From the NCBI GenBank assembly GCA_015060885.1, contig SUXO01000001.1:62001-126000 (forward strand): a DNA stretch of 64,000 nucleotides. Reading direction: 5' to 3'. How positions within the stretch are numbered: the first letter of the stretch is position 1; each line of letters opens with the position of its first letter. Made by a program: the position numbers and the translations under genes. Below, piece by piece: positions 31,669-50,798 of the stretch. A model generated the notes under the pieces. It searched no databases. It worked only from the letters and a program-made list of their open reading frames with translations, and was not told the DNA's origin. This stretch comes from Bacteroidales bacterium. GTDB lineage: Bacteria; Bacteroidota; Bacteroidia; Bacteroidales; Bacteroidaceae.

Positions 31669-31728
31669 ATGTCATTGGAGATAGAGCGCAAATTCCTTAT
31701 GTCATTGGAGATAGAGCGCAAATTCCTT
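31669..31728 (+). repeat. perfect 2 x 30-bp tandem duplication at start of CYTH gene
   Basis: atgtcattggagatagagcgcaaattcctt occurs twice back to back. Confidence 0.98.
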
Positions 31729-37558: not shown

Positions 37559-38806
37559 ATGGAACTTAACGATATTTTCAAGAGTGTGAAGAGCGCCTCG
37601 AAAGGGGTGCTTAAATTGAGTGAGGAGCGTGTGAATAAAGTGTTGTGCGCAGTTGCCGATGCGGCTGTGGAGTGTGCTCCCGAAATTCTTGCCGCCAACA
37701 ACGAGGATTTGGCCAGAATGTCGCCCGACGACCCCAAATATGACCGCCTTCGCCTCACGAAGGAGCGTATCGAAGCAATTGCAGCCGATATGCGCAAGGT
37801 GGCATCCCTTCCCTCGCCGCTTGGCCGCATCCTCAAAGAGAACACCCTGCCTAACGGCCTTCACATATCCCGTGTGAGTGTTCCTTTCGGTGTTATAGGC
37901 GTTATATATGAGGCGCGCCCCAATGTAAGTTTCGATGTCTTTGCCCTCTGCTTGAAGGCGGGCAGTGCCTGTGTGCTTAAAGGCGGCAGCGATGCCGAAA
38001 TGTCTAATAAGGCCATTGTGAAGGTTATACGCAGTGTGCTTGCAGGCTATGGCATAGATATACACACTGTGGAATTGCTCCCCGTGGAGCGCGAAGCGAC
38101 AGCAGCCCTGCTCAATGCTCGCGGTTATGTCGACCTGCTCATTCCTCGTGGCAGCAGCAACCTCATAAACTATGTACGCTCCAATGCCACAATCCCTGTC
38201 ATAGAAACGGGTGCCGGTGTGTGCCACACCTATTTCGATGCATCGGGTAACCTTGAAAAGGGAATGGCTATTGTGAACAATGCCAAGACACGCCGTGTGA
38301 GTGTGTGCAACGCGCTCGACTGCCTGCTTGTGAATACAGCAAGGCTGGGTGAGCTTGCAGCCCTCTGCGCCCCCTTGCAGAGCAGCAATGTGAAGATTTA
38401 TGCCGATGAAGCCGCTTACGGCGCACTTTCCGGCAACTACCCGGCATCCTTGCTCTTCCGCGCCACAGCCGACAGCTATGGTACCGAATTTTTGAGCTAT
38501 GCAATGGCGGTGAAAACAGTAGCTTCGGTCGATGAGGCCATTGCCCACATTTCGGAATACGGGTCGGGCCACAGCGAATGTATAATAGCCGAAGAGGAGG
38601 CAGCCGTGAATGCCTTTACCCTTCTGGTCGATGCAGCCTGTGTATATGCCAACGCACCCACATCGTTTACCGACGGCGCACAGTTCGGCTTGGGAGCCGA
38701 AATCGGCATCAGCACACAGAAACTGCACGCCCGTGGCCCTATGGCTCTCGACGAGATTGTCACCTATAAATGGATTATAAAAGGTAACGGGCAGGTGCGC
38801 GGGTAA
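37559..38806 (+). CDS. proA: glutamate-5-semialdehyde dehydrogenase
   Basis: [69 protein letters not shown]. Start at internal Met 37559. Confidence 0.96.
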
Positions 38807-38816
38807 TTTCTGCCCG

Positions 38817-39047
38817 TTGGTTCGCTTTTCTATCAGCACTCCACGCGGCAACATATTAACGTTGCTACGCGTGACTATTGCTGAAAAGCTCACCGATAAT
38901 TAGTTGTCATTGGCTCGCTTTTCTATCCGCATCCGCTGAAAAGCTCACCGATAATTAGTTGTCATTGGTTCGCTTTTCTATCAGCACTCCACGCGGCAAC
39001 ATATTAACGTTGCTACGCGTGACTATTGCTGAAAAGCTCACCGATAA
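38817..39047. repeat. three-unit structured intergenic repeat cluster (83+ bp unit, shortened 55-bp unit, 83-bp unit)
   Basis: ttggttcgcttttctatcagcactccacgcggcaacatattaacgttgctacgcgtgactattgctgaaaagctcaccgataa at 38817-38899 and, identical, at 38965-39047. Internally deleted copy at 38910-38964. Each full unit is an imperfect inverted repeat. Confidence 0.95.
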
Positions 39048-39061
39048 CAAAACAGGTTTTG

Positions 39062-42000
39062 CTATTCAAAGAAACGGAAAGTATCGTACCACTTTATCTT
39101 CTTCTTTGCAAGTTCGCTGCCCTGTTTTTCGGCAAGGCGGTACCAGCGTGCGGCGGCAAACTCGTTTTTCTTTGTTCCGCGCCCCTTTTCGTAGCAGTAT
39201 GCTACACGTTCCATTGCTTTGGGGTGCCGTTGGTTTGCAGCCTCGTGGTACCAGTGGAATGCTCTCTTACGGCTCTTTTTGACATATGTGCCCTTCTCGT
39301 GGAATTGCGCCAACTTGAACTGTGCCTCTCTGTGTCCGGCCTTTGCGGCGCGGGTGTAGTAGTCGCCGGCAGGGCTTTTGCGCATTTTTCGTTTGCTTAA
39401 TCCGGCTGCAATATCCTCCTTTTCCTTTATTTGGCCAAGTATAAAGAGGGCAACGGGCTCCTCCTGTCCGGCAGCCTTCATATACCAATTGTAAGCGACA
39501 GCGCTGTCCGGTTTCACTCCAATGCCTTTCATATAGCAGTCGGCAAGTATGGTCTGCGATGCAGCGTAACCGTTCTCGGCCGAAAGGGTGTAGTATTTTA
39601 TTGCAAGCGAGTCGTTTTTGTGCGTTCCCACTCCGTGCATATAACAGCTTGCAAGGTTGTGCAGGGCTGCCTTGTTGCCCAGGTTTGCTGCTTTGCGGAA
39701 ATTTGTGAATCCTTTGATGCTGTCCTGTTCGGTGCCCAGGCCAAGCATAATGCAGACAGCTGTGTTGAAAACCGCGTCGGGGTAGCCGAGTGCAGCAGCC
39801 TCGCTGAACAGTTTGAAGGCCTCATTATACTCTTTTTCGCGGAACAGTTTGCGCCCCTCTTCGTTTTTCAGGAAGCAGTGGGCAAGCAGTTCGGGAGTGT
39901 CTATTCCTGTTATGGGCCTGATGGTGCGTTCTGCTTCGTTCCTCTGTTTCACAAGGTCGTCTATGCGGCGTGTGAACATTGTGCTGTCGGTGCTGTAAAA
40001 TGTGCCGTCGGCATATCCCTCGACATTTACATCTATGCTCCTGGCTGTGGAGTTATTGTATAGCTCAACCTTAATTTTACCATCAATGGCTGTTGCCTGC
40101 GGAACCCACAAAAGGGTACGGCGATAGTCGCGCACGCTGCTGTCGGGGCGTAGTGTGCTGTAATCGGGGGCATAGAACTGCTTGCTTTGGGTGTAACCGT
40201 ACACAAGTGTGTAGCGGGCACTGCTGCTGTGCGACAGTTGCGGTATAAGGCTGCCGGCCCTCTCTTTTTCGCTGTTGGGTATGAAGCAGGCGACATAGTT
40301 GGGCATTTCATCGTCTTGTGCATTTTTGCTCTTCCTCTCGAAGGTTATTGCATCGGGCGCATCGTCTATATCCCAGTTTCTGGGCGGTATGCCTGTTTTT
40401 TGTGTAAACAGGTGGTAGAATGTGGAATAGTCGTAAGTCTTTATACTTTTAGTGTTTCCGCTCTGGACCCTTTTTCCGTTGTATAGTTTGCGCGTGTTTT
40501 CATCGGAGCGTATCACAATCTCCTTGAAGTCCAGCATTTTGGAAACATTCACGCCGGCGGTGTACTCTTCGTTGCTGCGTGGTATGCTGTCGGTGTGGTA
40601 TTCTCCGTCGAGAACCATACCTTGTATCCAATAACACCAGTTGAGGTTGTGCCGCCAGAATGCACTGCGCATAATGTCGACCGCGGTGAGAGTGTTGTGG
40701 TAGGCAGGGTCCTGAATGAGAAAGCTGCTCTGTCTCCTTATCTTGTTCATTCCACCAAAAACATCGACTACAATGCCATTGCCGCCGCTATTTAATCCAC
40801 CGTTGCTGCCCATAACGTACCGGTCGAACGATGAAAGAGTGGGCGCACCGAGCGAATACTCTTTTATACCATAGGGTGTGGAGTGGTCGAAAATGTGGTT
40901 TACAAAAGGGGATTCATAGTGACCGTATGAGCGGTAGCCGGTGGGGTCCCACGGGTCTATGCGGTTGGTGAGGTATGTGACATCCTGGGCATACTCCCAC
41001 TCGTCGAGGAAGTCGAGGCGCATTTCACTGCGTGGCGGGCGGTAGTTGCTGCTGCGTTTCTTTTTCGACACCACCTCGACCTGTGTGAGCAGGTATTCAA
41101 AGGGGTTTATCCTTATAATCTCCTCTCTCGCCTCTTTCAGCCTCTCCTGCGTAAGTGCTTTTCCTGTGTTGCGCTCCCAATAGTCGTACAGGCGCATGGC
41201 GGGCGAAAAATAGCGGTCGAGGTTGAATGCGAATATGCTGTCTTTGGTCGAAAGCGAGTTGAGTGCAGGGGTGAGCTTTGCCACTTTCTTACCATAGAAA
41301 TCCTTTGTGTTCAGGCGAAATTCTCCCTTTTCATCGGTCTTGAAATCATATTTGGTGACATTGCTGTCGCGGTAGGTAATCTCGAACTTTACCCTGCTGT
41401 CGGGTATGGTTGTAACAATGTATTTGTCGAGCTTGCCTATCCTGCGGTTGGGTTTCTTCTTTATGAACCTCCCGTTTACGGTTATCCCTTTTTCAATGGG
41501 CTCGGCAAGGTCGGCAAATCTGTTGCACAGTTTGCTCCAATCGTACGATGTCCAGCCGTGGGTGAGCATTACAAGGTCGAGTTCACGTATGCGGTTCCCG
41601 TTTGCGGGGTTAAAGTAGCGTGCAGCATCGGGGATGTACCCTTTTACTTCGCTGCCGAGCAGCATATAGGTGTATATGTTGTAGCTGTACGATGTTGTCA
41701 GCGGTGTGTCGGCATCGGTTACTGCGAGCGAGAAGTTGCCGCCTGTGAGGGGGGTACCATCCTCGCGTTCGATGCTCAATGTGATTTTCCCGTGCGGTGT
41801 CGCTTGCAAGTTGTCGAGCGGACGGTCATTGCTCTTCACCAACAGCCTGGCAGTGGGGCGGTCATCGACAATTGTTCCGTCGTGGGTAACGAAGAACATT
41901 CTTTCGGCAAGAGGCAAGCCTTCGCCTGCAAAGAGTATCACGCGGTTTACACCTTCGGGCAATGTGTTGCGGTCTATGGCAAAATAGACACTCTTTTCAT

Positions 42001-42988
42001 TCGATGAGAAGCGTTCGTAGAAATTGGTCTTTCCGCGGTGGACCGCAGCACAACCCAGTTCCACCGGCGATACGATGGTATTCTTCACGGAAATACCTAT
42101 GGTGCTGCTGTTGTGGTCGAGTGTTATTGCAACCCCCTCGCTCTCGGCTTCGGGGAGGCGGAATTTCTTTTTGTTGCCGTGAATGGCTGCGCTGTATTTT
42201 ACCCCTTTCTGCGGGTTCAAAAGGAATGTGCCCTTTCCCATATGTTCGGGTGTGGCGGTAAAGAGCTCGTCTCCATCGGCAAACACGGTTATGCTTTTCC
42301 CGCTGTTTATGCCGTCGGGCCCGAAGATTTCATAGGCTACACGTGTTTCCACACCTTCGAGAAGGTGTCCTCCTTCGGGGTAGAATTTGATATCCCATTC
42401 GGGCAGTTTGCCGTTCTCCCATCGCATTTTACGGTCGAGGCCTGTAACGCTGCTGTCCTTGTCGATATCGACCAGGAACGCCCTGCGTCTGTCGAGCATA
42501 TTGCGGAATGTGTAATCGCCGTTCTTCACCTTGTCGAACACGGGGAATACGCGGCTGAACACTGCATCCTTGCCGCGGTTGAGCATATATCTTGTGTAGG
42601 AACGCACCTCGTAATAACCCGACAGCAGCTGCTCGTTGAGCTCAAAGGAGCCGTCGCAGGTTCCGTTGTCGTCTATCTTGTATTTCTGTGTGCGCACCAC
42701 ATACCCTTCGGGTGCCACAAGTTCCACATACAGCACACGGCTTATAGTGGTGGGAGTGTCCTGTGTGCCGCTTGTCACGTAGGCTTTGAACCAGATGCTC
42801 TCGCCCAGGTAGTAGCTGTTATTGTCGAAATGGAGGTATACACGCTCTTCGGGGAACAGTTCCTGTTTTATAACCGACCGCACAACAAGGTTGTCGAGCG
42901 TGTTGCGCAGGGTGCTGTCCTTCTTCTCTTGTGCTGTTGCCGCCAGAGTGGCGAGCAACAGGATGTATGTAAGCAATCTCTTCATCAT
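39062..42988 (-). CDS. large secreted protein: MG2-like N-terminal region, TonB-plug-like middle segment, C-terminal Sel1 repeats
   Basis: Signal peptide MMKRLLTYILLLATLAATAQ; PEERVYLHFDNNSYYLGESIWFKAYV (MG2-like); C-terminal ~265 aa of Sel1 repeats (e.g. ALHNLASCYMHGVGTHKNDSLAIKYYTLSAENGYAASQ). Confidence 0.75.
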   Translation of the reverse strand: MMKRLLTYILLLATLAATAQEKKDSTLRNTLDNLVVRSVIKQELFPEERVYLHFDNNSYYLGESIWFKAYVTSGTQDTPTTISRVLYVELVAPEGYVVRTQKYKIDDNGTCDGSFELNEQLLSGYYEVRSYTRYMLNRGKDAVFSRVFPVFDKVKNGDYTFRNMLDRRRAFLVDIDKDSSVTGLDRKMRWENGKLPEWDIKFYPEGGHLLEGVETRVAYEIFGPDGINSGKSITVFADGDELFTATPEHMGKGTFLLNPQKGVKYSAAIHGNKKKFRLPEAESEGVAITLDHNSSTIGISVKNTIVSPVELGCAAVHRGKTNFYERFSSNEKSVYFAIDRNTLPEGVNRVILFAGEGLPLAERMFFVTHDGTIVDDRPTARLLVKSNDRPLDNLQATPHGKITLSIEREDGTPLTGGNFSLAVTDADTPLTTSYSYNIYTYMLLGSEVKGYIPDAARYFNPANGNRIRELDLVMLTHGWTSYDWSKLCNRFADLAEPIEKGITVNGRFIKKKPNRRIGKLDKYIVTTIPDSRVKFEITYRDSNVTKYDFKTDEKGEFRLNTKDFYGKKVAKLTPALNSLSTKDSIFAFNLDRYFSPAMRLYDYWERNTGKALTQERLKEAREEIIRINPFEYLLTQVEVVSKKKRSSNYRPPRSEMRLDFLDEWEYAQDVTYLTNRIDPWDPTGYRSYGHYESPFVNHIFDHSTPYGIKEYSLGAPTLSSFDRYVMGSNGGLNSGGNGIVVDVFGGMNKIRRQSSFLIQDPAYHNTLTAVDIMRSAFWRHNLNWCYWIQGMVLDGEYHTDSIPRSNEEYTAGVNVSKMLDFKEIVIRSDENTRKLYNGKRVQSGNTKSIKTYDYSTFYHLFTQKTGIPPRNWDIDDAPDAITFERKSKNAQDDEMPNYVACFIPNSEKERAGSLIPQLSHSSSARYTLVYGYTQSKQFYAPDYSTLRPDSSVRDYRRTLLWVPQATAIDGKIKVELYNNSTARSIDVNVEGYADGTFYSTDSTMFTRRIDDLVKQRNEAERTIRPITGIDTPELLAHCFLKNEEGRKLFREKEYNEAFKLFSEAAALGYPDAVFNTAVCIMLGLGTEQDSIKGFTNFRKAANLGNKAALHNLASCYMHGVGTHKNDSLAIKYYTLSAENGYAASQTILADCYMKGIGVKPDSAVAYNWYMKAAGQEEPVALFILGQIKEKEDIAAGLSKRKMRKSPAGDYYTRAAKAGHREAQFKLAQFHEKGTYVKKSRKRAFHWYHEAANQRHPKAMERVAYCYEKGRGTKKNEFAAARWYRLAEKQGSELAKKKIKWYDTFRFFE

Positions 42989-42995
42989 ATTGCTG

Positions 42996-44480
42996 TCAGT
43001 TTATGGGTGTTGAACCTACAAGCATCGGTCGTCTGCTTGTCTGCTGTGTTTCTGCTTTGCCGTGCCGGTATATTATGTGTGCATCGTATATGGTGTTGGC
43101 CTTTTCACCGTCCACTATTGCCGAAGCCCACTCTTTCTGCTTTATGTACTCCTCGGCAGAGGCTATCATAGCCGAGCGTATGAGCTCTATGTTGTCGACA
43201 ATGTTTTCGTTGCTTGTATTAAGCGATATGTCGCACCCTTTTATTGCAATGTCGCCGGCTTGTCCGTTATTGTCGGCAATGAATGATGCTCTCACGCTGC
43301 ATCTCCTAATATCGCTTTTTGCGATGCCCGGTGCTGTATCATTGTCTTGCAAGTTCATATATCCGTAATATGTTTCACTTGCATACCTAATGGCTGTTAC
43401 GCTCTCTTGCGGTGTCGTAGCCTTCTCTGTTGTAGCAGGTGCTGTGGCTGTTATGGTGTCGGTTGGCTGTTGCACTGCCTTTGTGGCAACCGTGGCTCTT
43501 TTTTTCTTTTTCGTTGGTACCGGGGGCGGGGGAACGGTTGTCCGGGCTGTTACAATTGGCGCAGTTTCTTCCTTTGTATGGGTTGCCGCAACGTCGGCTG
43601 TTACCTCTTTGTAGCTGTATATATATTGTGGCTTGGCAAACAACAACAGCAACAGCGATGTTGCGGGTATAAGGTAGAGCCACTTGGCGAGCCTGGCTCT
43701 GTCCGACTCTTTGCGTGCCATCATTGTAATTCTTTTGCGCACGCTGCTCTGGCTGAACCTGTTTATGAGTTGTGTGCCCGCGTTGCTTGCCGCCTTTTTG
43801 AGTATGAGCAACTGGTAGTCGCGTGCATTGTCGCTGTGCTCCATAACATATCGGTCGGCTTCGTATTCGTGTATCTCCTTTATGTCGTTTTCGAGCATAT
43901 ATATAAATGGGTTGAACCATTGGAACGCTTTTACTGCGGCAAGCAGCAGTATGTCCAGCGAGTGGCGGTGGAGTATGTGCCCCTCTTCGTGCAGGAGAAT
44001 CTCTTTTCCACACTCGTTATAGTCGCTTTCCGAAATTACAATATGGTTGAACCAACTGAAAGGGGCAACAGTGTCGGCGTGGCAGTGTATTATGGCTTTT
44101 CCACGCTGTTCGGTCCACAGTGTTCCGCGTCTTATGGCAGTGGCGGCCTTTGTGATACCCATTGCTGTTCCCAAAAGAGTGAAAGCTACCCCGGCAAGGT
44201 ATATTGCAAGGATAATGTTTTCCCATTCTATGGCGGTTGTGGCTCCTTGAATTGCTGTTGTTGCAATGTTGGTGCCTGCAACGATGTTTGCCGGTGCTTC
44301 CATTACAACGGTAAAGTGTATTTCGGCCCACGGCAGCAGTGCCGACACTACCACCGTGCCAAGCAACAGCAGGCGGTTGAGCGATGCAAATGTCTCCTTG
44401 CGCAGCAGCAACGTGAAAGGAATGTAAAGCACCGCAAGGCAGATGGTCCATTTGATTATATATACAAGGAATGCGCTCAT
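42996..44480 (-). CDS. M56 family metallopeptidase (BlaR1/MecR1-like antirepressor)
   Basis: N-terminal TM segments, HEEGHILHRHSLD (HExxH), EYEADRYVM; periplasmic T/A-rich C-terminal region instead of a recognisable penicillin-binding sensor. Confidence 0.88.
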   Translation of the reverse strand: MSAFLVYIIKWTICLAVLYIPFTLLLRKETFASLNRLLLLGTVVVSALLPWAEIHFTVVMEAPANIVAGTNIATTAIQGATTAIEWENIILAIYLAGVAFTLLGTAMGITKAATAIRRGTLWTEQRGKAIIHCHADTVAPFSWFNHIVISESDYNECGKEILLHEEGHILHRHSLDILLLAAVKAFQWFNPFIYMLENDIKEIHEYEADRYVMEHSDNARDYQLLILKKAASNAGTQLINRFSQSSVRKRITMMARKESDRARLAKWLYLIPATSLLLLLFAKPQYIYSYKEVTADVAATHTKEETAPIVTARTTVPPPPVPTKKKKRATVATKAVQQPTDTITATAPATTEKATTPQESVTAIRYASETYYGYMNLQDNDTAPGIAKSDIRRCSVRASFIADNNGQAGDIAIKGCDISLNTSNENIVDNIELIRSAMIASAEEYIKQKEWASAIVDGEKANTIYDAHIIYRHGKAETQQTSRRPMLVGSTPIN

Positions 44481-44501: not shown

Positions 44502-44879
44502 TTACTGTTTTTGTATAATTTCCAACAACTCTTTTATCTCATCCTCGCTCAACTGCTCCTTTTCGACAAAGAACTTTACCAGCGAGGAGCCCGACCCTCC
44601 GAAGAACGAATCCTTAACCTCGCTCATTACCTGGTTGGTATATTGCTCCTTGCTTACAAGGGGGTAGTAAGTGTGTGTCTTGCCGGTGAGTTTGCGGAAA
44701 TCGACAAACCCTTTGTTCAGCAGTATTTTAAGGAAAGTGGATATGGTGGTGTAGGCGGGTTTGGGCGCGGGGTAACGTGCTATGATATCGTGAATACAGC
44801 CGCCTTCGGGCAATTCCCACAGGGCGTTCATTACCTGCATTTCGGCTTTTGTAAGTGTGTCGAATTTCTTTTTGCTCAT
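44502..44879 (-). CDS. BlaI/MecI/CopY family transcriptional repressor
   Basis: LTKAEMQVMNALWELPEGGCIHDIIARYPAPKPAYTTISTFLKILLNKGFVDFRKLTGKTHTYYPLVSKEQY. Confidence 0.93.
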   Translation of the reverse strand: MSKKKFDTLTKAEMQVMNALWELPEGGCIHDIIARYPAPKPAYTTISTFLKILLNKGFVDFRKLTGKTHTYYPLVSKEQYTNQVMSEVKDSFFGGSGSSLVKFFVEKEQLSEDEIKELLEIIQKQ

Positions 44880-45011: not shown

Positions 45012-45068
45012 ATCATCGGAACTGTCGGCAACAGTCGCGCAGTGTAATAAGAGCCTCCGGGCCCATAT
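45012..45068. repeat. left copy of 57-bp direct repeat (att-like), duplicate of the wbqC-like 3' end
   Basis: atcatcggaactgtcggcaacagtcgcgcagtgtaataagagcctccgggcccatat; 56/57 identical to 50186-50242. Confidence 0.95.
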
Positions 45069-45078
45069 AATGTGTAAT

Positions 45079-46641
45079 TTACATATTTATAAATATAAGT
45101 TCATTTATTACATCTTTAATTATATTATCAATTTGTTTTGAAGGAACTTTAATTCTTTTGGTTAATATGATATTGCCTACATTGATTAAATTGTTTGTAT
45201 CGCAATTTATTTTGTAAATTAAAAACTGTTTATATAGTGGAATAAAGCGATTTGGACACATTTTTTGCGCTTTAGAATAATGAAGAATGGCATTATTATA
45301 TTGATGCTGTTTTTTATATATATCACCCAATAGTAGCTCTAAATCATAATCAGCCCAGTATTTCCTACATATCAACGCTGTTTCAAGAGACCTATTATAA
45401 TCTTCATAAAGATATAATTTTACAGAATAGTTATATAGAAAATATGGGTCATTTCCAAGTATTGACATCAAAGAGTCATATTTTGATATAAATGTATCCT
45501 TTTTAGAGGTTATATAGGCGATTTTACACCATTCTTTTTCTGCAGATATTCGTTCGATTATACGATATAGTACAATTGAAGAAAGACAAAATAATATAAT
45601 GATAAATGGATATTTGATTATGTTTTTTTTGATAAAACGAAATTTATACGCATTGTGAATTAAAATATAACTATTTATCGCAATTATAATCCAAGTAAAA
45701 GGATAGTATAGTGGATAAGAAAAGGCTCCTAAAACACCTATTGTTGCAATAGAAACAAGTGCATACATTCCGATACTTGATGGTGATTTTTTATAGCAAT
45801 GTATCATAAGACCGATGAAAATACATAATATAATCAATCCGATTATTCCGAAACATATACATATTGCAAAAAAATCATTGAATACGTGTTTTACATTGTC
45901 TGCTAATAAAGAAATATTATTGTTTGAATTTTTTGTCAACCATTCTGCTTGAAAATCCATATAATGCGCAGAAATGCCATTAAAGCCATAGCCTATTATC
46001 GGGTGCTTCTTAATCATTTCCCAAGCACTGCATAGTATCAATAAACGCCCATCTGCAGAATCTTTTTTTATAAAATACATTATCGGTAAAAGGACTATAC
46101 AGAAACAGAGAAACAACCATTGTAACCACTTCCTATACTTCTTATTAAAAACCCAAACGGAGCATGGAACAAATATTCCTGCAATTATTCCCGACCGAGA
46201 TCCAGAAAGTATTAAAGCGGTGCATATAATAGCAAATAAAGAAAGCGATAATAGTTTATGGAAGTTTTTTTTACTTATTTGTATGAGGTAGAGGCAATAA
46301 GGAGTACTTATGCTTAAACATGCAGCCAAACCTGCCGGATTGTCAAATCCTCCAACAATTTGAGGTGGAGTTTTAAATTGAAATAATTGAATTATAGCAT
46401 AAATAGATTGGCAAAAACAAATAAATACCACTGCTATAATCAAATATTTTTCATATATTTTTATTTGTTTCTTTAATAATACGATAATACATCCAATCAT
46501 ATTGCCAACAGTAACAAGACCTAATGTATATAACCATTTTGTCAGTATCTGCGTATCCGTCATTTGGGAGCTATATAGGAATGTTGCAAATATAGATAGG
46601 GTTAAAAAATATAACAGTTGTATTATTTGTATAACCATCAT
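45079..46641 (-). CDS. O-antigen ligase/Wzy-like membrane protein with C-terminal TPR
   Basis: Multiple TMs, SGSRSGIIAGIFVP, IIGYGFNGISAHYMDFQ; C-terminal TPR-like YNNAILHYSKAQKMCPNRFIPLYKQFLIY. Confidence 0.75.
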   Translation of the reverse strand: MMVIQIIQLLYFLTLSIFATFLYSSQMTDTQILTKWLYTLGLVTVGNMIGCIIVLLKKQIKIYEKYLIIAVVFICFCQSIYAIIQLFQFKTPPQIVGGFDNPAGLAACLSISTPYCLYLIQISKKNFHKLLSLSLFAIICTALILSGSRSGIIAGIFVPCSVWVFNKKYRKWLQWLFLCFCIVLLPIMYFIKKDSADGRLLILCSAWEMIKKHPIIGYGFNGISAHYMDFQAEWLTKNSNNNISLLADNVKHVFNDFFAICICFGIIGLIILCIFIGLMIHCYKKSPSSIGMYALVSIATIGVLGAFSYPLYYPFTWIIIAINSYILIHNAYKFRFIKKNIIKYPFIIILFCLSSIVLYRIIERISAEKEWCKIAYITSKKDTFISKYDSLMSILGNDPYFLYNYSVKLYLYEDYNRSLETALICRKYWADYDLELLLGDIYKKQHQYNNAILHYSKAQKMCPNRFIPLYKQFLIYKINCDTNNLINVGNIILTKRIKVPSKQIDNIIKDVINELIFINM

Positions 46642-46649
46642 TATTGTAT

Positions 46650-47369
46650 TTATCTTAACAGCTCATTGATTATTTTATTGTAATTTAATATAAAATATTT
46701 AGTAAAACAAAATTGTTCTGTATTTTCATAGTTGGTAAGTTCCAAACCGTAGTTTGTTATTTTGTATATTTCAGCACCAGGGTATGCAAGTAAAATTGGT
46801 GAATGTGTCGCAATTATAAATTGTGAATTGTTTTTTTCTAATTCTTTTATTTTTACAATCAATTTAAAAATACTTGATAATGATAATCCTGATTCTGGTT
46901 CATCAAAAATATATAAGCCATTGCCCGATAATCTATTTAATACAACTCCAAGAAAGCCTTCTCCATGGGAACGCTTGTGGAGTGCACCACCATAATTTTT
47001 TAATAATTTAAATCCATCTGTTATTCTATCGATTTCAGTTGCGATATTATAAAAACTTTCTGCTCTTAAAAAATACCCATCTTTATTCCTAATAGTTCCT
47101 CTCGTTAATTTAATATCGCGATACAAGGTTGAGTGAGTGTTCTGTGTTTGATAGTTTAAGAACAAACTTCCCCCCTCTGGATTAAAGCCTGCACGTATCG
47201 CAATAGCTTCAATTAAAGTGGATTTACCAGTACCATTCTCACCAATAATAAAGGTCACATTATTATTGAATTCAAATTCGTTTAAGTTTCGAATTGCAGG
47301 AATATTATATGGGTATTCCAAACGTTCTGATATCTGTTTTTCGTTGGTTATCTTTTTTATGTAAATCAT
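46650..47369 (-). CDS. AAA-family ATPase (SMC/ABC-like, COG3910-type)
   Basis: VTFIIGENGTGKSTLIEAIAIRAGFNPEGGS (Walker A), SHGEGFLGVVLNRLSGNGLYIFDEPESGLSL (signature and Walker B), FIIATHSPILLAYPGAEIY. Confidence 0.88.
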   Translation of the reverse strand: MIYIKKITNEKQISERLEYPYNIPAIRNLNEFEFNNNVTFIIGENGTGKSTLIEAIAIRAGFNPEGGSLFLNYQTQNTHSTLYRDIKLTRGTIRNKDGYFLRAESFYNIATEIDRITDGFKLLKNYGGALHKRSHGEGFLGVVLNRLSGNGLYIFDEPESGLSLSSIFKLIVKIKELEKNNSQFIIATHSPILLAYPGAEIYKITNYGLELTNYENTEQFCFTKYFILNYNKIINELLR

Positions 47370-47698
47370 TCTGAGATTAAACCCTTATCAAGTAATTCCT
47401 TTTTTAGTTTATAATATAATTCTAATTCAAGTTCTTGTTCTTGAATTGTATTATTTACATCACGAATGTTGGTAGGTGTTGAAATAACACTTTCGTCTAA
47501 TGTATCAAATGCTATTGTAATAACTTCATTGAGATTTAATTTTCTGTGCTCCCAAGAATAAAAAAGTGCATTTTCGTCCATTCCGTTAATGCTGATATTA
47601 AAATCCCCTTCTTTATTCGATATTATTATTCCAAAAGACCCGGATTTTAATGCTGCATAAATATTTTCTTCTCCGGCTTTTATTATAAAACCATTCAT
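47366..47698 (-). CDS. hypothetical protein (110 aa)
   Basis: Start/stop 4-bp overlaps with both neighbours; C-terminus LELYYKLKKELLDKGLISE similar to the next ORF. Confidence 0.7.
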   Translation of the reverse strand: MNGFIIKAGEENIYAALKSGSFGIIISNKEGDFNISINGMDENALFYSWEHRKLNLNEVITIAFDTLDESVISTPTNIRDVNNTIQEQELELELYYKLKKELLDKGLISE

Positions 47699-48030
47699 AA
47701 TAATCCTTTGCTTTTTAGCGAAGTTTCTAATGCATAAAACATTTCCAATTTTGATGGTAGTGGGGTTATATTATTATCATAAACACTTTCAATTGGTGTT
47801 GTTGTATCTTTTATATTGACAAGTCTTATTTTAATAATATCTCCTTTCTCTATCAGGTTGTATTTATGCCCAATGTGTCTGATTTTATTATCATAATCAA
47901 TGCTTGCTGAATATAAAAAAGCTCCCTTTTTATTATTTGAGTTTATAGAATTTATATGTACGATCGTTTGACCGTTCTTAACTCCAATTAGAGTTCTTTT
48001 ATTATTATAAATTATTTCTATACCATTCAT
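47695..48030 (-). CDS. hypothetical protein (111 aa), distant paralogue of 47366-47698
   Basis: 4-bp overlaps with both neighbours; C-terminus LEMFYALETSLKSKGLL. Confidence 0.7.
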   Translation of the reverse strand: MNGIEIIYNNKRTLIGVKNGQTIVHINSINSNNKKGAFLYSASIDYDNKIRHIGHKYNLIEKGDIIKIRLVNIKDTTTPIESVYDNNITPLPSKLEMFYALETSLKSKGLL

Positions 48031-48995
48031 TGTTTTTTACATTTATGTGTTGAGTATGGAGGCCAATAGCCTTGTGTTAAACAGAATTGTAAGCAAATAG
48101 AGCAACCATCAATTATTTCAGAATAACAAGATTCAAATTCTTGCTGACAGTATTCGTAGTTTTCATCTGCGGTCTTATCAAATTTTTTGCATACAAGATA
48201 TTCATATAGCATCACGCCGGCTGTGTATACCATAAATCCTGTCGCAACAGCTGTGGCAGCCCCAATAACCATAATTTCATCGCCAGGTATAGGGGTCGCT
48301 ATTGCAACTAACATTGATGTAGCTAAAACCTTATGACATAATTCACCAAAGTTTTCGTTAGATTCACTTCTTGTTTTTATCAATATGTGCTGTGTGGCTG
48401 TACGAGAGGTATGTATCATCAAACCTTGACTTTCTAGATATTGAATCTCTTTCATTCCATAGTATAGTACTGATGTTACATTAAATAACCTTTCCTGTTG
48501 TATTTGTGGTACTACTTCATAAATATCTTCATTTATTTTCAATAAAACATTGTAGTATTCCTTAATTGAGGTAGTAGAGTTGCATTCGTCAATTATTCTA
48601 TTTAAGAATTCAATTTGAATTTTTGTTAAATTTTTGACTTGTTCTACAAATCTTTTTGGGCTTATGTTGTATTCATAGATAGAGCCTTTTGTTTTACAAA
48701 TATTGGGGTTCGCATTGTAAAAATCATTATAAAAATTTTCTTTAAATTCTAACGACTCGTTAGCATTTGAATAATCGACCCCTTGTTTATGTAAGTTTCT
48801 AATTGTAATATTTAATTCTTTTGCAACTCCTTGTCCTAATTGTTTTGAAGTTTCTGGCCAATTTTCTCTGTACTCAATTTGTCTAAATCTGTTAAATTCA
48901 TCTAAATCGCTGCTACAATAGCAAAAAATAATTATCGAAAGACTTAAAAAAAGTGTTAAAATTTTGATTCTCATAAAATTATTTAACGTTTGCAT
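48027..48995 (-). CDS. predicted lipoprotein/secreted protein with Ala/Gly-rich hydrophobic segment and Cys-rich C-terminus
   Basis: LTLFLSLSIIIFCYCSSDLDEF (lipoprotein-like signal), MVIGAATAVATGFMVYTAGVMLYEYLVC, CQQEFESCYSEIIDGCSICLQFCLTQGYWPPYSTHKC. Confidence 0.65.
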   Translation of the reverse strand: MQTLNNFMRIKILTLFLSLSIIIFCYCSSDLDEFNRFRQIEYRENWPETSKQLGQGVAKELNITIRNLHKQGVDYSNANESLEFKENFYNDFYNANPNICKTKGSIYEYNISPKRFVEQVKNLTKIQIEFLNRIIDECNSTTSIKEYYNVLLKINEDIYEVVPQIQQERLFNVTSVLYYGMKEIQYLESQGLMIHTSRTATQHILIKTRSESNENFGELCHKVLATSMLVAIATPIPGDEIMVIGAATAVATGFMVYTAGVMLYEYLVCKKFDKTADENYEYCQQEFESCYSEIIDGCSICLQFCLTQGYWPPYSTHKCKKQ

Positions 48996-50019
48996 TTATT
49001 GTTATTGTATATATAGGTGTATCTAAAGAGTTAGATGCTATGTGTACCTCTCTATAAATACTGCCTTTATTTTCTGGTGTGAAATCAAATTTTAATATTA
49101 TTGATTTTCCAGGGTTTATAATGTTTTTTTTTGAACTATTTATCTTTACACAACTGCAACTCGTTAGTATATCTGAAATTTTAAGAGGATGTCCCCCGTT
49201 GTTAAATATTTCAATATTCACATTGTATGTGTGGTTTATTATGCAATTGGGTAGGTTTACTATATTTGTTGATGAGGAAATCTTTGGTGCAGAATTATTA
49301 TACATAGGATTAAGGACTTTGTTTGCTATTAATAATTCATCATAATAGTAAAATATATCTGATGCAGAATCAAATTCAAGAAGTTCCTTAGCTGTTTCTC
49401 TTGCTTCTATGGTTTTATTAAAATGTATCTGATTTTCTAATTTTAAATATAAGAGATATGGGTGTTTTCTTTTTGCAAGTAATGAGTCTATACAAATATC
49501 AGCATCTTTGTTTGTATATATTTTTGATTTTAATATTAAAGCATTATTAACCATATTTATGATATCCTTTTTATCTTTTTCATAGTTTTGGTTGTAATGA
49601 AACTCAGAGGAAGTTTCTTCTGAAAGAATTGCTTTATCAATATAATAGAAACTCTCTATTGAACTTCCAGGTACTAATTCTATTAGTTGTTTATTTGTGT
49701 TGAATACACAAGTAACAGGATAAATGTGTGGGGATAATAACTTTGAGTACCATTTGTTATCGTTGTTGTAGACATTTATAAAGTTATACAAAATACTGTG
49801 GGGCAATTTTGTATGTGTTTTTATCATTTTGAGATATTCGTTTACGGTGAAATGTGTTGAGTCTATAAGTACTATGCAGAAAGGCAGGCCTGTATTATCT
49901 GACAAACTGCGAATCTCATCTATACTTTTATTATTATATGTATAAAACTTATTTTCTTCATTAATACATGAAAGTGTAAAAAGAATACTCATAAAGTAAA
50001 AAAATAAAAAATTTTTCAT
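48979..50019 (-). CDS. thioredoxin-like + DUF1573 domain protein (predicted lipoprotein)
   Basis: MKNFLFFYFMSILFTLSCINE (lipobox); C-terminal DUF1573-like IFNNGGHPLKISDILTSCSCVKI...PGKSIILKFDFTPENKGSIYREVHIASNS. Confidence 0.75.
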   Translation of the reverse strand: MKNFLFFYFMSILFTLSCINEENKFYTYNNKSIDEIRSLSDNTGLPFCIVLIDSTHFTVNEYLKMIKTHTKLPHSILYNFINVYNNDNKWYSKLLSPHIYPVTCVFNTNKQLIELVPGSSIESFYYIDKAILSEETSSEFHYNQNYEKDKKDIINMVNNALILKSKIYTNKDADICIDSLLAKRKHPYLLYLKLENQIHFNKTIEARETAKELLEFDSASDIFYYYDELLIANKVLNPMYNNSAPKISSSTNIVNLPNCIINHTYNVNIEIFNNGGHPLKISDILTSCSCVKINSSKKNIINPGKSIILKFDFTPENKGSIYREVHIASNSLDTPIYTITINANVK

Positions 50020-50087
50020 TTTAATAAAAGCTAATTCGTCCGAATTTTAGGTATTTATGGCGGTGTAAAAATAATAAAAATTACATA

Positions 50088-50106
50088 ATGTATAATTCCT
50101 ATACAT
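50088..50106. promoter_or_regulatory. dyad upstream of island operon
   Basis: ATGTATA-attcc-TATACAT, 7-bp perfect half-sites, 69 bp upstream of the first ORF of the operon. Confidence 0.3.
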
Positions 50107-50185
50107 ATATTTTAGTAGCTTGTGTCTATATTTTTCTTTTGTAACGTTATTACAGCATTGTTTCTACAATGTATAAGGAAATATT

Positions 50186-50242
50186 ATCATCGGAACTGTC
50201 GGCAACAGTCGCGCAGTGTAATAAGAGCCTCAGGGCCCATAT
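50186..50242. repeat. right copy of 57-bp direct repeat (att-like), forming the 3' end of the wbqC-like gene
   Basis: atcatcggaactgtcggcaacagtcgcgcagtgtaataagagcctcagggcccatat. Confidence 0.95.
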
Positions 50243-50798
50243 TGAAAAGCAGGTCAATGATACTTAAATTGGGAATGAATCCGTGGCGTGCTGCAAATAC
50301 CTGGTAGTAGGGTTCGGGGGAGTAGCCCTCTATTGTGGCAAGGGCTTTGGGCTCGGCAATGTGGCGCAGTTCCTCCACTGCGCTATCGGGCGTGTCAACC
50401 GCTTTGCGGTCGAGTCCCAGAAGTTCACACACAACAGCGTGGAGCCGCATGTTGAAATCCATAAGGAACCCGTCGCGTTCTTGGTAGAAATGGGCAAAAT
50501 CGTCGGCGTAATAGTCGAAGAAAGGGCTTTTGCGGTAGGCGCTTACAATGGCGTTCCAGTGCAGGTGTCGCCAGTTTCCGTGTTCGCTTATACGCACATC
50601 GCGCATAGCCTGGTTGCCGTTGTGTACAATGGGTATGGTAAGGGCCTGTGTCCCGTTTTCCGTGGCTATGACAGCTCTGTTGCGAAAGGTCTGTTTCACA
50701 AACGGGGAGCTGCCGTCTATAATTATTCCATCGGAGGCATACAGGCGGGCATACAGCGGCACGGGTGCCAGGTAGAGCGGGTGTGCAAGTATGTTCAT
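50187..50798 (-). CDS. WbqC family protein
   Basis: PLYLAPVPLYARLYASDGIIIDGSSPFVKQTFRNRAVIATENGTQALTIPI...HWNAIVSAYRKSPFFDYYADDF. Confidence 0.88.
   Translation of the reverse strand: MNILAHPLYLAPVPLYARLYASDGIIIDGSSPFVKQTFRNRAVIATENGTQALTIPIVHNGNQAMRDVRISEHGNWRHLHWNAIVSAYRKSPFFDYYADDFAHFYQERDGFLMDFNMRLHAVVCELLGLDRKAVDTPDSAVEELRHIAEPKALATIEGYSPEPYYQVFAARHGFIPNLSIIDLLFNMGPEALITLRDCCRQFR

Follow-up and report, generated by a model that had tools for sequence, protein, structure and literature searches.

The window, a stretch of 64,000 nucleotides, contains a compact AT-rich island of 5117 bp and six genes (positions 45069-50185, minus strand). The GC content drops from about 0.50 to 0.27-0.32 across 45.1-50.0 kb and returns to 0.54. 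For the island as a whole it is 28%, against about 50% for the flanks, which range from 45 to 54%. The cargo looks foreign by this composition, and the difference between the interior and its flanks that an earlier sequence-only reading had described is reproduced. On the right the island meets wbqC (50187-50798, minus strand), an intact gene for a protein of 203 amino acid residues (Pfam WbqC, E = 3e-36). This is the host gene of the duplicated 3' end. On the left lie a blaI-like repressor gene (44502-44879, minus strand), which is the ancestral downstream neighbour of wbqC, and the gene of a BlaR1-like M56 peptidase (42996-44480, minus strand), also an ancestral neighbour. Beyond the latter is the gene of an MG2/Sel1 protein of 1308 residues (39062-42988). 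Local direct repeats of 96 and 52 nt are present between proA and the MG2/Sel1 gene, just behind proA (38787-39047), and at 31669-31728 an exact 30-bp tandem repeat duplicates the start of a gene for a protein of 168 residues (MSLEIERKFLMSLEIERKFLV...).

The six cargo genes are located on a single strand, the minus strand, with ends that overlap or nearly abut, and are read as one operon. Gene 1 (48979-50019), preceded by about 166 bp of non-coding DNA on the side of the right repeat copy, encodes a lipoprotein-like protein of 346 residues with a C-terminal DUF1573 domain; a scan of 201 family genomes gave a best relative with 26% identity. Gene 2 (48027-48995) encodes an orphan lipoprotein-like protein of 322 residues with a Cys-rich C-terminus. 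It has no relatives in the 43 genus mates searched and one marginal match in 393 genomes sampled from the order, and its structure model, with a pLDDT of 36, is unusable. Genes 3 (s2, 47695-48030) and 4 (s1, 47366-47698) are paralogues coding for small proteins of 111 and 110 residues, respectively. The AlphaFold model of the gene 3 product is beta-rich with a C-terminal helix (pLDDT 77). Gene 5 (46650-47369) encodes an AAA_21-type ATPase of 239 residues, for which an anti-phage defence role was considered and rejected, the matches being to generic AAA domains only. Gene 6 (45079-46641), whose 3' end adjoins the left repeat copy, encodes a Wzy_C (O-antigen ligase) protein of 520 residues with a C-terminal TPR region; its identity to most of the other ligase/TPR proteins in the genus is about 31-33%. 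From these domains one might guess that the ligase modifies surface lipoproteins. No relatives of the cargo were found in viral contigs or in a genome-contig collection.

The island is enclosed by two copies of a 57-bp direct repeat, at 45012-45068 and 50186-50242 (both given on the minus strand). A repeat search of the window returned the coordinates, the common orientation and the single mismatch (56 of 57 positions identical) that had been noted from the sequence, and when the complete assembly was searched at the DNA level, just these two copies were found. The right copy is continuous with the gene body and provides wbqC with its functional 3' end. Read in the wbqC sense, it comprises the last 56 nt of the gene including the stop codon TGA, plus one nucleotide, at which the identity ends. 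It encodes ...MGPEALITLRDCCRQFR*, and its coding strand is ATATGGGCCC...CGATGAT. The left copy, on the blaI side, forms an orphan 3' end of wbqC and is presumed to be the original gene end, since detached: the ancestral blaI spacer adjoins it, while the right copy links the gene body to the island. The mismatch is a synonymous CCT/CCG change in a proline codon, with CCG in the left copy. In a tblastn comparison the last 17 wbqC residues recur at the left copy and the match extends no further, in agreement with the proposed assignment of the right copy as gene end with stop codon and of the left copy as an orphan. Inside the left boundary the sequence is that of the ligase gene, and the lack of further wbqC homology there excludes a decayed tandem wbqC duplication.

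A tRNA or Rfam feature as the target was likewise rejected, with the one tRNA lying far off and no Rfam match around the island. Within the 57 bp an imperfect inverted repeat, ACTGT-TGCCG-ACAGT, can be seen by eye; by a rough estimate it is unremarkable. Across some 0.69 Mb of DNA from the genus, the window included, there is no other exact direct-repeat pair of at least 32 bp, spaced 0.4-15 kb apart, that edges an AT-rich block between flanks of normal GC content. The remaining pairs of at least 32 bp, judged by spacing and GC content, fall inside AT-rich or paralogous stretches.

A search for wbqC in 61 genomes (our own and 60 relatives) showed that most genus mates have the gene. The empty site that the sequence-only reading had proposed to look for at the wbqC-blaI junction is present in three sister species (G014, G010 and G015). 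Each has one wbqC end and lacks both the block and its cargo, so that the locus is not occupied in all relatives. Their wbqC genes are about 80% identical to that of the present species, and the gene order lepB-wbqC-blaI-M56-MG2/Sel1-proA is shared. The distance from the wbqC end to blaI is 128 bp as measured in G014, compared with a spacer of 133 bp here. The latter, which lies beyond the left copy, is similar on visual comparison to the spacer of the sisters; both hold ATTACTAATAA.AAAAGTTAAA-like sequence. These empty sites indicate that the block was inserted in the present lineage, unless a precise loss took place in the sisters. In another relative (G032, locus L036) proA directly follows wbqC, and the blaI, M56 and MG2/Sel1 genes are absent from that place. 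The wbqC-proA interval is thus variable, and the surroundings of wbqC are also altered by other routes.

The insertion is genuine and lineage-specific, and there is strong evidence that it took place at the 3' end of wbqC and left the gene restored. With a repeat that runs a single base beyond the stop codon and a complete wbqC, an att-like insertion is the best-supported reading. An identity that ends at the stop codon, followed by a sister-like spacer beyond the left copy, is what would be expected if the element carried only the coding end. We propose that a cargo-only islet was inserted once at the wbqC 3' end in the lineage of this species. It would have arrived as a circle bearing a wbqC end and been joined at the resident end by a recombinase acting in trans or since lost; alternatively, RecA-independent recombination of the short repeat, of the kind seen with the microcin H47 island, may have joined the two. 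The islet would have brought along a copy of the final 57 bp of the gene, which would have kept wbqC whole and cut off the resident end in front of blaI. The case is built on one genome, and we give this reading a probability of roughly 0.55.

The searches for recombinases and attachment sites weigh against this reading. Among the six island genes no recombinase was found with Pfam or NCBIfam, nor any integrase, excisionase or mobilisation gene, as the sequence-only reading had indicated for integrases and transposases. The assembly is a draft of 64 contigs, 88.5% complete. A search of it with the PF00589 profile, which covers tyrosine recombinases, returned two proteins that look like XerD and XerC by their size and neighbours (one is close to tuf). 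The island ends show no dif-like site: compared with the E. coli and B. subtilis dif sequences, which may differ from that of the host, they score at best 17 of 28, no better than the best match elsewhere in the window (20). No orphan wbqC end that could serve as attP was confirmed in viral contigs or phage records by DNA pattern and C-terminus alignment; two phage records carry near-complete wbqC genes only. The earlier proposal of site-specific integration into a gene 3' end is therefore partly supported. It is compatible with a repeat that ends at the stop codon and with the restored gene, but no recombinase, dif-like site or phage attP accompanies them.

It is useful to compare this arrangement with known mobile elements. 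Islands with an integrase that lie in the 3' ends of protein genes, such as SGI1 in trmE and the dusA islands (PMC8409611), are similar in their 3'-end insertion, whole target gene and lineage-specific cargo. They share with the present island repeats derived from the target gene end, a restored gene and an empty attB in relatives. They differ in that the island here is without an integrase, an excisionase or a mobilisation gene, and none of its six genes encodes a tyrosine or serine recombinase. A transposon with target-site duplication was rejected, there being no transposase and no inverted repeat that pairs the two ends. An IMEX or Xer-dependent element was also rejected. The integrase-less insertion and the XerC- and XerD-like proteins of the host are similar, but the repeat is a gene end and not a dif core, and a dif-like site is absent at both ends.

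The closest precedent is the microcin H47 island of E. coli. It is integrase-less, excises and inserts via flanking repeats, and moves independently of RecA by a mechanism that has not been identified (PMC3191183, PMC5426353). Both islands are small and cargo-only, with flanking direct repeats and no recombinase gene inside. Excision and integration of the H47 island were measured, whereas mobility here is putative. In addition, the H47 repeats are extensive and imperfect, while those here are 57 bp long, nearly perfect and situated in a gene 3' end, and the cargo is unlike. Excision and insertion driven by repeats and free of an integrase, on the H47 model, could explain the same anatomy.

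The last codons of wbqC bear on the origin of the second copy. They read RDCCRQFR* in both copies here, as compared with RDCAR* in the three sister species. Given this species-specific ending, the copy of the element must derive from the present species or one very close to it; a wide-ranging attP copy would be expected to differ more from the host end. The same codons make capture from a conspecific donor the main rival explanation. A donor with an AT-rich operon naturally behind wbqC would have recombined homologously inside wbqC, and the other joint would have formed illegitimately 57 bp before the resident gene end, duplicating that end. Such capture would require neither a recombinase nor an attachment site. 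It is in keeping with the lack of a recombinase and with the downstream neighbour of wbqC, which differs widely among genus mates, and if donor and recipient differed only behind wbqC, the repeat would be expected to have one edge at its stop codon. However, in no genome was the operon found immediately after a lone wbqC, so that an unseen donor is needed, and repeats of the H47 type would give the same anatomy without any donor. We regard capture as possible though rather unlikely.

One genus mate, G002, contains a second, partial wbqC 3' end of 98 bp, 94% identical, shortly behind wbqC and separated from it by non-homologous DNA (L041, contig C16). It is the only such case found among the other family genomes. 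On contig C16 two copies of wbqC with matching surroundings lie in opposite orientation, so that the contig may be misassembled, possibly as a palindrome, and the genome is marked 7% contaminated. The second end is thus a weak hint that the wbqC end is used repeatedly. It is doubtful, in our estimate, that wbqC 3' ends in this genus repeatedly serve as targets for cargo operons that lack a recombinase and travel as circles, that these would move by recombination of a captured gene end alone as a Bacteroidales counterpart of the H47 strategy, and that the partial end in G002 would be a relative that has decayed or lost its cargo.

The 98-bp duplication in G002, at the same gene end and without large cargo, also agrees with repair of a staggered break or with template switching. 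Foreign DNA without any wbqC sequence would then have been joined at a break, with 57 bp of the host copied on both sides as a long target duplication. The near identity of the copies, including the fast-evolving last codons, fits this. On the other hand, 57 bp far exceeds the usual target duplications of transposons, and a repeat edge within 1 nt of the stop codon would be a coincidence. This explanation appears improbable to us.

Other ligase/TPR genes of the gene 6 type are found in the genus at largely AT-rich loci, of which the present genome has two (L122, 6566-17695, and L123, 6657-10089; contig C57). These two contain ligase/TPR genes together with duplicated lipoprotein or small-protein genes, and one has an exact internal duplication of 856 bp. 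No flanking repeats were found at the block edges of these other genus loci, including the two in the present genome. The presence of these two loci shows that such DNA belongs to the genome, and it speaks against the idea that a small circular replicon or a contig of a second strain was spliced in artificially via the shared 57 bp. The fragmented state of the draft would permit such an error, and at small k-mers the 57 bp in common could connect assembly graphs, but a real molecule with a wbqC end at both sides would still be needed. An assembly artefact is very improbable.

The small proteins and the ATPase are found together elsewhere in the order. Relatives of the gene 5 ATPase in other Bacteroidales are 66-70% identical. 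Two family genomes have it at 68-70%, and in one of these it lies behind polA with the rest of the cargo missing. Relatives of the small proteins occur in 7 of the 393 genomes drawn from the order, our own included. One genome (G302) has a row of eight or nine small proteins before an ATPase of 66% identity, a second (G432) has one small protein upstream of an ATPase of the same type, and a third (G251) has a pair near an MG2-type protein. The module loci are 46650-48030 in the window, 7140-11272 in L141, 6937-7598 in L142, and L146. The small-protein module gave no Pfam match, and a fold search with the small protein no match at E < 0.001.

The structure at wbqC is a clean but not unprecedented cargo-only island, another integrase-less genomic islet. 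A comparable empty site in the sister species, together with the lack of a recombinase detected on board, makes the movement of integrase-less islands directly testable. The cargo also exposes an undescribed module: the tandem paralogues of about 110 residues with an AAA ATPase are a recurrent, uncharacterised combination in other Bacteroidales.
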